NCBI GenBank assembly: GCA_021647835.1 | Contig: JAKITY010000005.1 | Location: 1-40,148 of the forward strand | DNA length: 40,148 nucleotides | Source of the DNA: Flavobacteriaceae bacterium | GTDB taxonomy: Bacteria; Bacteroidota; Bacteroidia; Flavobacteriales; Flavobacteriaceae | Direction of reading: 5' to 3' | Shown: positions 25,025 through 36,445 of the stretch, one piece after another | Numbering within the stretch: position 1 is the stretch's first letter | Layout: each line of letters starts with the position of its first letter | The notes under the pieces: generated by a model | Told to the model about the DNA's origin: nothing | Database searches by the model: none | What the model saw: only the letters and a program-made list of their open reading frames with translations | Made by a program: the position numbers and the translations under genes

Positions 25025-25032
25025 TACATTTG
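25025..25032 (+). promoter_or_regulatory. Putative -7 box of the btuB riboswitch transcript
   Basis: TACATTTG fits TAnnTTTG and lies just before the first base of the cobalamin aptamer (about 25037), so the aptamer would form the very start of the message. No TTG is seen at the -33 distance. Confidence 0.55.
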
Positions 25033-25036
25033 CAAC

Positions 25037-25220
25037 GAATTTGGTTTTCAATTCTATAAACATTAGAAATGAAATTAAAAGGGAATTTGGTGTAAATCCA
25101 AAACTGTTCCCGCAACTGTAAGTTCAGTCAGCCGTTGGTTGGCGCTTGCTTCAATCTAAAACCACTGTGCAAACGGGAAGGTAGAAAGCAAGACACGAGT
25201 CAGGAGACCTGCCATAATCA
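25037..25220 (+). promoter_or_regulatory. Cobalamin (vitamin B12) riboswitch
   Basis: This region has the conserved core of the cobalamin aptamer: GGGAATTTGGTGTAAATCC at 25081-25099, then CTGTTCCCGCAACTGTA, and the B12 box ACGAGTCAGGAGACCTGCC at 25195-25213. Between them the peripheral arm carries TTGGTTGGCGC. It is upstream of the TonB receptor, the classic target. After the aptamer a further hairpin (25252-25259 with 25265-25272) and a stretch to the ATG at 25328 probably form the switch that hides or frees the ribosome site; there is no U-run terminator, so control is probably at translation. Adenosylcobalamin as ligand is inferred from the class. Confidence 0.96.
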
Positions 25221-25327
25221 TTGAGTAACAGACTTTCGGGAAGAAAAGTTAGGTTATAGAAATTCTATATCCAAATTTTCCACCTGGTTTTATCAATCAA
25301 AAGGCAAAAGTCTTTAAAATTATTAAA

Positions 25328-27271
25328 ATGAAAAAAATCAGTATTAAACTAAGTATTTTAGCAGTACTATTAACTGCAAATGTTGCTTTTTCACAAGAGC
25401 AAAAAGAAGAGAAAGTAGAACAACTCGATGAAGTTGTGCTTTCTGACACAAAATTTGAATTAAAAAAAGAACATTCAGGTAAAATTATCTACAAAATTAC
25501 TCAAAAAGACATTGAACAAAATGCAGGAAAATCAGTAATTGATTTACTTGATAATATTGCAGGTGTTGAAATTAGTGGAAATAACAATGCAAAAGGAACA
25601 AACCTTGGATTGTACTTTAGAGGCGGACGTTCGCGTCAAGTAGCAGTGTTAATTGACGGAGTTTTGGTGAGTGATCCTACGGGAATTGCATCCGTTTATA
25701 ATCTGAATTTAATTGATATTAACCAAATAGAATCTATTGAAATTTTAAAAGGTTCGTCAAGTACTTTATATGGCTCTGGTGCTGCAACAGGAGTTATTAA
25801 TATTATTCTTAAAAAAGCATCAAAAAAACCTATTTCATTGAATTATTCAGCAAGTATTGGCACAAACGACACGCAGAAAAATAGAAAAGGGAACTTTGAT
25901 GAGATTAACCAAAATGTAGGTCTTAGAGGAACTTTAAACAAATTTAATTATATTGCAACTTACGGTATTTCTACATCAAATGGTATGTCTGCTGCAAGCG
26001 ATGTAAATTCTGCAACATCTTTTGAAAAAGATGATTTTAATAGCAGTAACGGCTTGATAAAATTAGGCTATGCTGTAAATGACAAACTATCGTTTGAGGC
26101 ATTTGGAAACTATAATCGATATGAGTATGATTATGACACAGGAAGTTATGCCGATTCTGACATCAATAATGGATATGAGAAAGAGGTAAAACATGGTTTA
26201 AAAGCGAATTTCTCATACAATAAAGGAGAATTGATCGTTATTGGTTCTGCAAGTAATCTCAAAAGAGGATTTGATAGTTTTAACAGTTTTGGAGGAACTA
26301 CTGATAGTTACTTATATGAAGGAAAAAGTTTGTCTGCTGAAATTGTAAACAAATATACTCTTAATAACGAGTTTCACGTAATTGTAGGACTAAATTACCA
26401 AGATTTTGACAACCAAACCAATACTCCTTTTGGAAATATTGATAGCGATATTGCAAAATACACAACGACTGATTCTTATGTAAGTATTGTTTATACAGGC
26501 AAAAATGGCTTGAACGTAAATGCAGGAGTTCGTTTAAATAACCATTCTGAATACGGAGATCATTTTGTGTATCATGTAAACCCTTCTTACAATATTTTAT
26601 CTTCGGATGATGCCAAAGTAAAGGTTTTAGCATCATATTCTACTGCATTTATTGCGCCAAGTACATACCAATTATTCTCAAGTTTTGGGAATTTAGACTT
26701 GAATCCAGAAGAAAATACAACAATCGAAGCTGGTTTTGACGCATCGTATAAAAAATGGCTAGAAGTGAGTTCAGTATTCTTTTATAGAGATGAAGAAAAT
26801 AAGGTAATCTTTAATTTTGATCCAATTACATTTGTAAGTCAGTATGGAAATGCTGAGGGAAAATCGAACGCAAAAGGAGTAGAAACAGCAGTTCGCATAA
26901 AACCAATAGATAAAGTTACTGTGAATTTATCACATACGTTTACGCATAAAAGTGAAGACTTCAATTACATCCCAAAAAATAAAATTGTTGCAAATATTGT
27001 TGCAACACCTTTTAAAAATTCTACATTTTCTGTGACTTTTAAAAATTTGAGTGATAGAAATGCTTCTTATTATGATGCTACAATATTCTCTGTTATTGAT
27101 ACAACAATGAAATCATATAGTTTGGTAGATTTTTCCGCAAGTTATAAATTGATTAAACATTTGACTGTTTTTGGTTCGTTAGACAATGCTTTTAATGAAA
27201 ATTATGAAGATGTTTACGGGTTTTCAACACGAGGAAGAAATATTAAACTTGGAATCAAGTTAAACTTTTAA
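25328..27271 (+). CDS. btuB: TonB-dependent vitamin B12 receptor, BtuB-like
   Basis: A 647-residue outer-membrane receptor with a signal peptide (about residues 1-22, ending VAFSQ). The TonB box region is near EQLDEVVLSDTKF (about 30-42). The plug domain (about 45-160) has VIDLLDNIAGVEISG and IESIEILKGSSSTLYGSGAATGVINI, and the barrel ends in the typical aromatic-rich strand RGRNIKLGIKLNF with a C-terminal Phe. The riboswitch directly upstream makes cobalamin the likely ligand and predicts repression when B12 is plentiful. The gene is ended by a hairpin at 27299-27335 and is not in an operon. Size is close to E. coli BtuB (about 600 residues). Confidence 0.93.
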   Translation: MKKISIKLSILAVLLTANVAFSQEQKEEKVEQLDEVVLSDTKFELKKEHSGKIIYKITQKDIEQNAGKSVIDLLDNIAGVEISGNNNAKGTNLGLYFRGGRSRQVAVLIDGVLVSDPTGIASVYNLNLIDINQIESIEILKGSSSTLYGSGAATGVINIILKKASKKPISLNYSASIGTNDTQKNRKGNFDEINQNVGLRGTLNKFNYIATYGISTSNGMSAASDVNSATSFEKDDFNSSNGLIKLGYAVNDKLSFEAFGNYNRYEYDYDTGSYADSDINNGYEKEVKHGLKANFSYNKGELIVIGSASNLKRGFDSFNSFGGTTDSYLYEGKSLSAEIVNKYTLNNEFHVIVGLNYQDFDNQTNTPFGNIDSDIAKYTTTDSYVSIVYTGKNGLNVNAGVRLNNHSEYGDHFVYHVNPSYNILSSDDAKVKVLASYSTAFIAPSTYQLFSSFGNLDLNPEENTTIEAGFDASYKKWLEVSSVFFYRDEENKVIFNFDPITFVSQYGNAEGKSNAKGVETAVRIKPIDKVTVNLSHTFTHKSEDFNYIPKNKIVANIVATPFKNSTFSVTFKNLSDRNASYYDATIFSVIDTTMKSYSLVDFSASYKLIKHLTVFGSLDNAFNENYEDVYGFSTRGRNIKLGIKLNF

Positions 27272-28167: not shown

Positions 28168-28212
28168 TGTAACATTTGTTACAGAGATATAAGACTATAT
28201 TCTCTATGTTTG
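28168..28212 (+). promoter_or_regulatory. Dyad operator plus promoter of the FadL-type gene
   Basis: TGTAACATTTGTTACA (28168-28183) is a perfect dyad with 7-bp arms and a 2-base centre. It is followed by a -7 box TATGTTTG (28205-28212, TAnnTTTG). Dyad centre to box centre is 33 bases, placing the dyad about 41 bases before the start of transcription, where Crp/Fnr-type activators contact polymerase. No TTG is present at the -33 position, which fits activator dependence. The same arrangement occurs at 35991-36034. Confidence 0.6.
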
Positions 28213-28248: not shown

Positions 28249-29607
28249 ATGAAAAACACTTTTTTAAAGTTATTCACCTTACTATTTTCAACAATATTAT
28301 TTGCACAAGCAGGACATATTATGCAAGGAGTTGGTGCCGTAAACATGTCTATGGGAGGAGCCTCCACAGCGCAACCATTAGATATTTCAGGAGCATTACA
28401 ATGGAATCCTGCGTCAATTTCTACATTTGATAGCAAAATCATGAAATTAGACATTGGTTTATTCTTTTCATCTCCAACTTTATCATCATTCTTACCTGCA
28501 GATATGTTAGGTCCTGGAGCACCTCCAGTTAGTGGAATCACAGAAGACGATAGAGGTGCATCTCCAATGCCAGCATTTGCAATAGTTTGGGGAAAAGAAG
28601 ATAGTAAACACACTTTTGGAGCATCTGCTTTTGGAATTAGTGGTTTTGGAGTTACTTTTCCTGAAGAAGCAAACAATCCATTTAGCGGGACTTTTAACCC
28701 TGCAACAAATTCAAATCCAATAAATTATCCTCAAGCAGCAAATGGTTTTGGTCATATTGAATCTGACTATTTGTTATTGCAAATTGGTTTTACTTGGGCT
28801 TATGAACTTTCAGACAAGTTTTCTGTCGGGATAGAGCCAACATTTAATTATGCAGCGTTAGAATTAGCACCAAACCCAACAGCCAACCCAAATGCTGCGG
28901 GATACCCAAAATCTAATAAAGCAACCGCAACAGGTGTTGGAGCACAAATAGGATTATTCTATGATTCTGGAAATGGTTTTAAAGCAGGAGCATCTTATAA
29001 AACACCACAATCATTTAGTGATTTTGAATTTGAAAACACACATTTAGACGCATCTGAATCTACAAATAATTTTAATATGGATTATCCAGCGATATTATCA
29101 TTTGGTTTAGGATATTCAAAGAAAGATTTTGATTTGGCATTAGATTATAGAATGGTAGATTATGAAAATACAGATGGTTTTGCTGAATCAGGATGGACGC
29201 CAACGGCTTCTGTTGCAGGATTTGGATGGCAAAACATGAACATTCTATCTGCAGGAATTCAATACAAAGGAATTGACAAACTACCTTTGAGAGTTGGATA
29301 CACATATAGCTCAAACCCTATAAAAGATGAATTAGCATTTTTTAGTGTTTCAGCAACTGCTGTAATTGAAAACGCATATCAATTCGGACTTAGTTATGAA
29401 CTTTCTGATAACTTTACTTTAGATGCAGTATATCATCACGGTAGTAGCAATGGAGCGACTTCTGGTCAATTATTAAGTCCTTTAGCAATCACACCAAGCA
29501 ATCCTTTAGGTGCTTTGCCTGGAACTTCTGTTTCTTATGAAATGACTACAGATTTAATAATGTTCGGACTAAGTTATACTTTTAATAAAAAAGAAGCAAA
29601 AGATTAA
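28249..29607 (+). CDS. OmpP1/FadL-family outer-membrane transporter
   Basis: A 452-residue outer-membrane barrel protein. The signal peptide ends near residue 20 (TILFAQA), and the mature N-terminus has the FadL hatch signature GVGAVNMSMGGAS with nearby QWNPASIS. Repeated beta-strand patterns follow and the last strands read DLIMFGLSYTFNKK. Known FadL proteins let long-chain fatty acids or other hydrophobic compounds through the outer membrane. The ligand here is unknown. The gene has its own promoter with a dyad operator about 41 bases before the start, and a strong terminator after it, so it is a single-gene unit under specific control. Confidence 0.93.
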   Translation: MKNTFLKLFTLLFSTILFAQAGHIMQGVGAVNMSMGGASTAQPLDISGALQWNPASISTFDSKIMKLDIGLFFSSPTLSSFLPADMLGPGAPPVSGITEDDRGASPMPAFAIVWGKEDSKHTFGASAFGISGFGVTFPEEANNPFSGTFNPATNSNPINYPQAANGFGHIESDYLLLQIGFTWAYELSDKFSVGIEPTFNYAALELAPNPTANPNAAGYPKSNKATATGVGAQIGLFYDSGNGFKAGASYKTPQSFSDFEFENTHLDASESTNNFNMDYPAILSFGLGYSKKDFDLALDYRMVDYENTDGFAESGWTPTASVAGFGWQNMNILSAGIQYKGIDKLPLRVGYTYSSNPIKDELAFFSVSATAVIENAYQFGLSYELSDNFTLDAVYHHGSSNGATSGQLLSPLAITPSNPLGALPGTSVSYEMTTDLIMFGLSYTFNKKEAKD

Positions 29608-34846: not shown

Positions 34847-35974
34847 ATGAAAACAGATTATTACGAAATATTAGGCGTAAACAAAGGAGCAACTGCTGCC
34901 GAAATAAAAAAAGGGTATCGTAAACAAGCCGTAAAACATCATCCTGATAAAAACCCAGGAGACAAGAACGCTGAAGAAAAGTTTAAAAAAGCTGCTGAAG
35001 CTTATGAAGTCTTAAGTGATGAAAATAAGCGTTCTCGTTATGATCAATTTGGTCATGCTGCATTTGAAAATGGTGGTGCTGGAGCAGAAGGCTTTGGTGG
35101 TGGTTTTGGCGGAGGCGGAATGAATATGGAAGATATATTCAGTCAGTTTGGAGATGTTTTTGGTGGCGGATTTGGCGGAAATAGAGGAGGCTCTCGAACT
35201 GCTCGTGTTAAAGGAAGTAATATGCGAATAAGAGTTAAAGTAACTCTCAAAGATATTGCTAATGGAGTAGAAAAGAAAGTAAAAGTCCGTAGAAAAGTAA
35301 AAGCAGATGGTGTGACTTTTAAAACCTGTTCTACATGTAATGGTCAAGGTCAAGTGATGCGTGTTACCAATACTATTTTGGGTAGAATGCAAACTGCTGC
35401 AACATGCCCAACATGTCATGGTGCAGGACAATCGATAGATAATCGCCCAAAAGGATCTGATAGTAATGGAATGATTCAAAAGGAAGAAACGGTTTCTATA
35501 AAAATTCCTGCAGGAGTTACTGATGGAGTTCAATTAAAAGTAACAGGAAAAGGAAATGAAGCTCCTGGAAACAATTCAATTTCAGGAGATTTACTAGTGC
35601 TTATTGAAGAGGTAAGACATGAATCATTGTCAAGAGAAGGAATGAATTTACATTACGATTTGTACGTAAATTTATCTGAAGTGGCACTTGGAGCAAGTAA
35701 AGAAATTGAAACAGTTACTGGAAAAGTAAAAATTAAGATTGATGCAGGAACACAATCTGGAAAAATATTAAGGTTAAGAGGCAAAGGTTTGCCAAGTATA
35801 GAAAGGTATGGGACAGGAGATTTATTAGTGCATATCAATGTTTGGACACCTCAAAATCTTTCAAAAGAGCAAAAACAGTTTTTTAAAGAAAATATTTCGG
35901 ATAATAACTTTACTCCAAACCCTTCAAAATCAGACAAATCATTTTTTGAAAAAGTAAAAGATATGTTTTCTTAA
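34847..35974 (+). CDS. dnaJ: Chaperone protein DnaJ, two-motif zinc domain
   Basis: A 375-residue Hsp40 that delivers substrates to DnaK and stimulates its ATPase. The J domain has the HPD motif in [10 protein letters not shown], then a Gly/Phe-rich linker (about 75-115). The zinc domain has only two CxxCxGxG motifs (CSTCNGQG and CPTCHGAG), where most DnaJ proteins have four, so it can bind one zinc ion instead of two; I know this form from other Flavobacteriaceae. The C-terminal substrate domains include [16 protein letters not shown] and [13 protein letters not shown]. It is co-transcribed with grpE. The stop lies 16 bases before a dyad operator that serves the next transcription unit. Confidence 0.95.
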
Positions 35975-35990: not shown

Positions 35991-36034
35991 GTAACAAATG
36001 TTACCTAATATAACTAAAAAAGCATATATATTTG
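35991..36034 (+). promoter_or_regulatory. Dyad operator plus promoter of a candidate small RNA
   Basis: GTAACAAATGTTAC (35991-36004), a perfect dyad with 6-bp arms and a 2-base centre, is followed by a -7 box TATATTTG at 36027-36034. Centre-to-centre distance is 33 bases, identical to the fadL promoter at 28168-28212, and there is no TTG at the -33 position. The 5-4-5 layout (GTAAC-N4-GTTAC) is that of Fnr-type sites (TTGAT-N4-ATCAA). A Crp/Fnr-family activator is inferred. Confidence 0.6.
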
Positions 36035-36038
36035 CACC

Positions 36039-36111
36039 GTTATTAGTTGTAATGATTAATAACACTTTTTCATAGCAATTTTCCCACTCAAATCTTTGAG
36101 TGGGTTTTTTT
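36039..36111 (+). ncRNA. Candidate regulated small RNA between dnaJ and rnpB
   Basis: From the expected start just after the -7 box to the U-run at 36111 a transcript of about 73 nt is predicted. Its 5' end folds into a hairpin (GTTATTA at 36039-36045 with TAATAAC at 36057-36063), then an unpaired U-rich linker of about 19 nt (ACTTTTTCATAGCAATTTT-like) leads to a strong terminator hairpin. No credible ORF is present. Hairpin, single-stranded linker, terminator is a usual layout of base-pairing sRNAs. I considered the Rfam family Flavo-1 but cannot compare it here. Confidence 0.55.
36083..36111 (+). terminator. Strong rho-independent terminator
   Basis: A perfect 10-bp stem, CCCACTCAAA (36083-36092) with TTTGAGTGGG (36095-36104), followed by seven T residues. 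It ends the candidate small RNA and sits directly before rnpB. Confidence 0.92.
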
Positions 36112-36126
36112 ATTTACATACTTTTG
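36096..36126 (+). promoter_or_regulatory. Promoter of rnpB
   Basis: TTG at 36096-36098, 20 bases, then TACTTTTG at 36119-36126, as in the pcrA promoter. The TTG element is part of the right arm of the preceding terminator stem. Transcription would start near 36131, the first base of the RNase P P1 helix. Confidence 0.65.
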
Positions 36127-36130
36127 CAAA

Positions 36131-36436
36131 AGCAGATCGTCTTATCGTTCCGATTTTAATCGGAAAGGAAAGTCCGGACACCAAAGAGTAGCATAATGGA
36201 TAACATCCATCGTTTCGATTTATCGGAATAGGACAAGTGCAGCAGAAAGAATGTACAGGTAATGCTGTAGTGAAACCAGGTAAACTCTATGCGGTGCAAT
36301 GCCATGTATATTGAAGTTTGAGAGTACTCGCTCGATTTCAAAGGGTAGGCAGTTAGAACTATTGAGTAATTGATAGTCTAGATAAATGATAAGAATCCGT
36401 CTTTAACGGATACAGAATCCGGCTTACAGATCTGCT
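36131..36436 (+). ncRNA. rnpB: RNase P RNA (class A)
   Basis: The catalytic RNA of ribonuclease P, about 306 nt, which removes 5' leaders from pre-tRNAs. Conserved pieces are visible in order: GGAAAGTCCGGACACC (CR-I, 5' half of P4), the GTGCAGCAGAAAG segment, GAAACCAGGTAAACTC, GGTGCAATGCCA, and ACAGAATCCGGCTTACAG (CR-V, 3' half of P4). The ends pair as P1: AGCAGATC (36131-36138) with GATCTGCT (36429-36436), followed by a T-run that serves as terminator. Size and layout fit the bacterial A type. Confidence 0.96.
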
Positions 36437-36445
36437 TTTTTATTG

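Follow-up and report, generated by a model that had tools for sequence, protein, structure and literature searches.

Several near-redundant copies that share a common pairing stretch are a known arrangement of bacterial small RNAs (sRNAs), as in LhrC of Listeria and Qrr of Vibrio. FnrS of Escherichia coli has a Crp/Fnr-type operator before a short, terminator-ended sRNA. In Bacteroides, one report describes the FopS family as sRNAs that act near start codons, have an RRM_1 partner, and block the translation of susC (PMC11697453). According to another report, Flavobacteriaceae make up a major share of the communities of soils, seas, and fresh waters, and in Flavobacterium psychrophilum 4 known and 85 new RNAs have been named Rfp1 to Rfp89 (PMC9723704). 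The literature that we found holds little on post-transcriptional control in this family.

The locus described here lies in a stretch of 40,148 nucleotides of a Flavobacteriaceae genome (the window), in the order dnaJ, a perfect dyad, 22 bases, the box TATATTTG, a hairpin, an unpaired stretch, a terminator, and rnpB. Its features, followed by a second operator and the gene behind it, are as follows.

34847 to 35974, + strand: dnaJ, the upstream neighbor, a 375-aa open reading frame (ORF) kept before most sRNA copies; the name follows the original prediction and our inspection of the sequence rather than a family search
35991 to 36004, no strand assigned: operator dyad GTAACAAATGTTAC of the Crp/Fnr type, perfect, 14 bp; its pattern GTAACANNTGTTAC occurs twice in the window versus 0.01 expected
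36027 to 36034, + strand: −7 promoter box of the TAnnTTTG class, assigned by sequence pattern
36038 to 36111, + strand: sRNA of about 74 nt, its start placed from the −7 box and its end from the terminator, supported by fold and conservation
36039 to 36063, + strand: 5′ hairpin of the predicted fold, the fold being kept while the sequence varies
36065 to 36081, + strand: near-invariant unpaired core CTTTTTCATAGCAATTT, 17 nt, the proposed pairing seed
36083 to 36111, + strand: intrinsic terminator with a T tract (hairpin at 36083 to 36104, 9 pairs, T run)
36129 to 36442, + strand: RNase P RNA (rnpB), the downstream neighbor (Rfam RF00010, 192.6 bits)
28169 to 28182, no strand assigned: second perfect operator, 22 nt before TATGTTTG (28205 to 28212)
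28249 to 29607, + strand: gene for an OmpP1/FadL-type outer membrane protein behind the second operator (ORF; Pfam PF03349, E value of 2.2e-15)

Elsewhere in the window, positions 25025 to 25230 hold a Cobalamin riboswitch (Rfam RF00174, 98.4 bits), and shortly after it a 647-aa ORF at 25328 looks by eye like a TonB-dependent receptor.

Together, the dyad, the TAnnTTTG box, the two hairpins, and the terminator almost certainly define an RNA gene. The region from 36037 to 36112 was predicted to fold into two hairpins at −21.1 kcal/mol, where shuffled sequences averaged −7.92 kcal/mol (z-score of −5.05), and none of 200 shuffles was as stable as the native fold. The original prediction had named a perfect dyad, a two-hairpin body, a strong terminator, RNase P RNA as a neighbor, and an sRNA of about 73 nt, all of which are borne out by the features above, the last of them also by conservation across the family. 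It had also put the −7 box 33 bases beyond the dyad; the box is present, but 33 is the distance from center to center, and the true gap is 22 nt. Its statement that the transcript holds no ORF was right in substance, although an ATG frame does exist, the sole one within the sRNA, with 7 codons at 36052 to 36075; by eye, its ATG is missing in one other copy (L014). A coding role on either strand was rejected, as the mini-frames are not kept (by eye). The comparison with Rfam that the prediction had proposed, Flavo-1 (RF01705) included, gave no family at its gathering threshold over the sRNA in the window, and none at the sRNA in 20 loci of relatives containing 23 copies; the best subthreshold match in the window was Ref84 (29.4 bits versus a threshold of 52). 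Flavo-1 and the other Rfam families were therefore rejected as its identity, with scores below threshold and Flavo-1 absent from the subthreshold window matches listed.

The original prediction had overlooked that this RNA has a conserved core and paralogues and is spread across the family. The RNA's own genome, which is 69% complete, holds three copies, and the two extra ones, on contigs C94 and C6, have differing 5′ hairpins, an identical linker core, and similar terminators. By DNA search, 35 of 119 relatives gave a match, in some cases by chance. A sequence-only profile (R1), built from 44 copies that were largely exact-core ones, matched 272 of 299 Flavobacteriaceae genomes (sampled with a requested completeness of at least 90%) and 188 of 203 genera at an E value of 1e-3, many of the genomes with one match. 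Matches were found in 36 of 246 genomes of an order-wide sample, 29 of the same family and the other 7 at E values of 7e-5 to 8e-4, with up to eight matches at an E value of 1e-3 in a genome (G483), and in 20 of 247 genomes of a phylum-wide sample, of which 6 do not belong to the family and have E values from 3e-4. These 13 outside-family matches, which slightly exceed the E-value expectation under a rough profile calibration, scored 18.6 to 22.2 bits versus 40 to 58 bits for most family members listed; two that were read (L239 and L240) had core-like strings with four changes and one change, respectively, and no terminator hairpin by eye. A scan for the exact core, by its design uninformative on core invariance, returned at least 117 stretches, and the 80 records among the matches listed presumably belong to Flavobacteriaceae genera, Maribacter and Dokdonia among them, or to uncultured Bacteroidota or Flavobacteriia/Flavobacteriales bins. 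Six IMG/VR viral contigs carry the core, and at L175, L176, L178, L179, and L180 the core, hairpins, and terminator lie among ORFs that look phage-like by eye. We consider it reasonably probable that this locus represents a multicopy family of trans-acting sRNAs in Flavobacteriaceae, a judgment that applies to the family, seed pairing, and Crp/Fnr firing jointly.

The 17-nt core CUUUUUCAUAGCAAUUU hardly varies: of 79 copies found by similarity, 77 have it unaltered and the other two have it with one change. It was intact in 24 of 26 BLAST copies (query included) and in 53 of 53 profile copies, the latter partly by construction because R1 came largely from exact-core copies. These counts derive from 88 loci read, of which five were dropped as duplicates and four, which look like chance BLAST hits, lacked the core; the loci from the family- and order-wide searches were the best-scoring ones, so that variants may be underrepresented. 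For 129 of 147 copies, the predicted fold left all 17 core nucleotides unpaired. Among the copies of this earlier set of 147 that have a TAnnTTTG box (129 tested), the 5′ hairpin had at least 5 pairs in 127, with 95 distinct stems, and all 127 z-scores were below −1.64 (median −5.3) relative to shuffles of single bases, a control in which the "own canonical" value of 1.0 holds by construction. Since the fold is retained through 95 distinct stems, the 5′ hairpin is conserved as a fold and not as a sequence. RNAalifold predicted no pairs on the MAFFT alignment (A1) because the linker length differs, and the hairpins were scored per copy instead; a copy set picked for equal hairpin geometry was discarded because that choice itself favors pairing.

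The core is the antisense of AUGAAAAAG, i.e., of a start codon and, in register behind it, two lysine codons (AAA AAG), and 73 of 593 ORFs sampled from one genome (G006) begin with ATGAAAAA. On these 593 ORFs, the native seed formed 20 start-covering duplexes at −10 kcal/mol or below, versus a mean of 7.05 for shuffled seeds, one of 60 of which reached 20; the reversed core gave one and the complement two. With CAU held fixed, the figures were 20 versus 10.5, and 16 of 250 shuffled seeds covered an equal number of starts. Counted over whole start windows, the native seed was unexceptional (28 duplexes versus 19.95, equaled by 7 of 60 shuffles), and GCT before ATG showed no enrichment at starts (4 of 593, close to the base-composition expectation). 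Across 100 genomes, the antisense of a 14-nt core with at most one mismatch occurred 1118 times, a count that still includes the sRNA copies, versus 766 for the reversed control. Many of the top sites are, by eye, starts of secreted proteins or lipoproteins, and one gene of G169 has an 18-nt perfect complement over its start (L388). The strong candidate targets that were read are unrelated genes in different species, and none of six candidate target proteins compared resembles another; one strong candidate lies in a genome without the sRNA in the profile search (G151). The matches listed showed no near-perfect complement in common that would point to one universal RNA partner. On this modeling, pairing of the core with the start regions of mRNAs is the leading mechanism, which we hold with slightly less than even confidence.

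In G169, which has several sRNA copies, exact antisense of most of the core is found at C12:257958, C12:258847, and C30:73883 (L387, L388, and L391), adjoining short or lipoprotein-like frames. These sites may be targets, decoys, or chance.

Alternatively, the core could be a protein-binding site, by which the RNA titrates or guides an RNA-binding protein and pairs with no mRNA. A U-rich stretch between two hairpins suits such a role, and most multitarget seeds need fewer near-invariant unpaired bases than the 17 present here. Against this alternative, the core reads as the antisense of a start codon that has AAA AAG in register, and a survey that covered the RRM_1 class found such proteins in none of 8 sRNA-holding genomes, versus 3 of 11 sRNA-less ones. 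We regard this alternative as rather unlikely and start-region pairing as the preferred reading. Within these 19 genomes, RRM_1 occurred solely in G177, G366, and G413 (L381 to L384), members of a genus (g146) that is mostly without the sRNA (5 genomes matched versus 19 unmatched among those listed). It is possible that RRM_1 and the sRNA are mutually exclusive, the sample being small.

It could also be argued that the sRNA is not an independent gene but the processed 3′ end of a grpE-dnaJ transcript, induced by heat shock. Of 197 distinct copies, 173 lie directly after dnaJ (with a same-strand dnaJ match no more than 400 nt upstream), an RNase P signature coming next after the sRNA in 38 of them. 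A terminator-like hairpin precedes the sRNA promoter in just 14 of the 173, although that scan picks up the terminator of the sRNA itself in 178 of the 197. Against such an origin, TAnnTTTG stands at a narrow distance, 20 to 40 nt upstream of the core, in 176 of the 197 copies (163 of 173 at dnaJ and 13 of 24 elsewhere), and we judge it improbable that processing is the sole source. An own promoter and processing from the dnaJ transcript may nevertheless coexist: the sRNA, with a promoter box of its own, lies after an mRNA, and because an earlier hairpin is so rare its terminator probably ends the dnaJ operon as well, which makes an extra supply from dnaJ transcripts, hence in heat shock, possible. 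That the element is only a terminator and spacer conserved by its neighborhood, with no RNA function, would fit its conserved position and offer an obvious end for dnaJ, but this reading is already disfavored and highly improbable, given the hairpin z-scores and the paralogues and phage copies that retain core, hairpins, and terminator far from dnaJ.

As to how the trans-acting sRNA might be fired, 13 sites in its own genome fit the dyad with at most one mismatch, and at four of them TAnnTTTG follows exactly 22 nt downstream: those of the sRNA, the OmpP1/FadL gene, an MBL-type gene, and one without a called gene. The 26 occurrences of GTAACANNTGTTAC with at most one mismatch in this genome are not clearly above the 20 of the reversed control; what stands out is the perfect dyad with its fixed spacing. 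In 60 relatives, the pattern GTAACN4GTTAC-N(21-23)-TAnnTTTG gave 57 matches in 27 genomes, 50 of them with exactly 22 nt, versus one match for the reversed pattern, and the same dyad and 22-nt spacing occur at L161 and L222. By eye, 15 of 29 operator loci read lead to sulfur-type genes (MBL-rhodanese, rhodanese, TauE, YeeE/YedE, and sulfate permease) and others to TolC-like proteins, thioredoxins, a cytochrome-like protein, and unknown frames, while one leads to an sRNA copy; Pfam searches on four regulon members returned MBL-rhodanese, TauE, Sulf_transp, and sulfate permease. On contig C76, a perfect dyad without the full TAnnTTTG precedes a gene of the 4Fe-4S/NrfD type (polysulphide reductase family). 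In relatives, the loci L344 to L372 suggest a Crp/Fnr sulfur regulon in which the distance from operator to promoter is fixed, and the operators at 28169 to 28212 and before the sRNA place two proposed regulon members in one window.

Three Crp/Fnr proteins of this genome exceeded the cutoff. The C76 gene adjoins its own dyad here, and at 7 of the 29 operator loci from other genomes a gene of this type is no more than about 1.5 kb away. For the other two proteins, no homologue was found beside any of 42 loci searched at an E value of 1e-5; one of these two, C61, has an Fnr-like cysteine-rich start by eye. From this gene context, the C76-type protein is quite probably the user of the operator before the sRNA, and control by it, rather than by an oxygen-sensing FNR, is likely; we infer that the signal it reads is a sulfur species. 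The dyad is centered about 41 bases before the expected start, with the same 22-nt gap as at the regulon genes, and a center near −41 is the class II activator position.

In the sRNA family at large, the operator (TAACN4GTTA 22 to 23 nt before TAnnTT) is present in 7 of 244 distinct copies, two of which (L362 and L378) were retrieved through operator patterns, or in 5 of 242 once the loci obtained through such patterns or afterward are omitted; the combined sRNA and operator pattern occurs in 3 of 397 family genomes. The operator-bearing copies are dnaJ linked in G000, G001, G004, G181, and a Polaribacter bin, and in G008 and G071 they differ from the dnaJ-linked copies of those genomes. Since so few copies have the operator, control by it is lineage specific. 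Thus, of the conservation that the original prediction had proposed to look for in relatives, the hairpins are kept but the dyad is not, and its Crp/Fnr-type operator holds up as a recurring dyad-N22-TAnnTTTG element adjoined by a Crp/Fnr gene, but not as a feature of the sRNA family. Its comparison with FnrS, whose signal is oxygen, is probably wrong about the signal because sulfur metabolism is what the genes downstream of the operator suggest.

We propose that the sRNA would be fired from its TAnnTTTG promoter and that its core, by pairing with AUGAAAAAG and the bases around it where translation starts, would block initiation, often for exported proteins and lipoproteins. With copies behind differing upstream sequences, one seed could serve different signals; in this organism, the C76-type protein would activate the dnaJ-linked copy through the site 22 bp before the −7 box, and the sRNA terminator would probably also end the dnaJ operon. 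In its full form, which we advance as a tentative possibility, a near-universal sRNA family with a fixed 17-nt start antisense (AUGAAAAAG and bases upstream of it) and no RRM-type partner of the kind known in Bacteroides may be a common output that various promoters, phages, and a sulfur-responsive Crp/Fnr protein use to lower export-bound proteins. An RNA whose core hardly changes and that 272 of 299 genomes carry would give a strong handle on post-transcriptional control in Flavobacteriaceae, the dyad-N22-TAnnTTTG rule offers a proposed Crp/Fnr regulon of sulfur metabolism that can be tested directly, and the phage copies suggest an RNA worth carrying or subverting.

The family is apparently undescribed: a literature search found no description of it, although the supplementary list of Rfp1 to Rfp89 lay outside the comparison and a prior listing is possible. 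Among the known systems, Qrr scored 14.8 bits versus a threshold of 50 at the sRNA, and no sequence relation was seen. FnrS differs in that the flavobacterial operator has another sequence, is present at few copies, and belongs to a regulon that looks related to sulfur and not to oxygen. Rfp18 of F. psychrophilum is likewise a conserved flavobacterial sRNA with a proposed base-pairing role, but its pairing region is described as a third stem-loop, whereas the present core is unpaired between two hairpins (PMC9723704). By our analysis, the nearest described family appears to be FopS. No Rfam match to it was seen at the flavobacterial sRNA, the Rfam set used possibly lacking a FopS model. FopS differs in its host family and in the 5′ hairpin that precedes the flavobacterial core, and also in its protein partner, RRM_1 being absent from the 8 sRNA-holding genomes (the own genome being 69% complete); action near start codons was demonstrated for FopS and is a proposal here (PMC11697453). 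Both families are multicopy, have a single-stranded seed before the terminator, are widespread in their host family, and are found on phage (PMC11697453).
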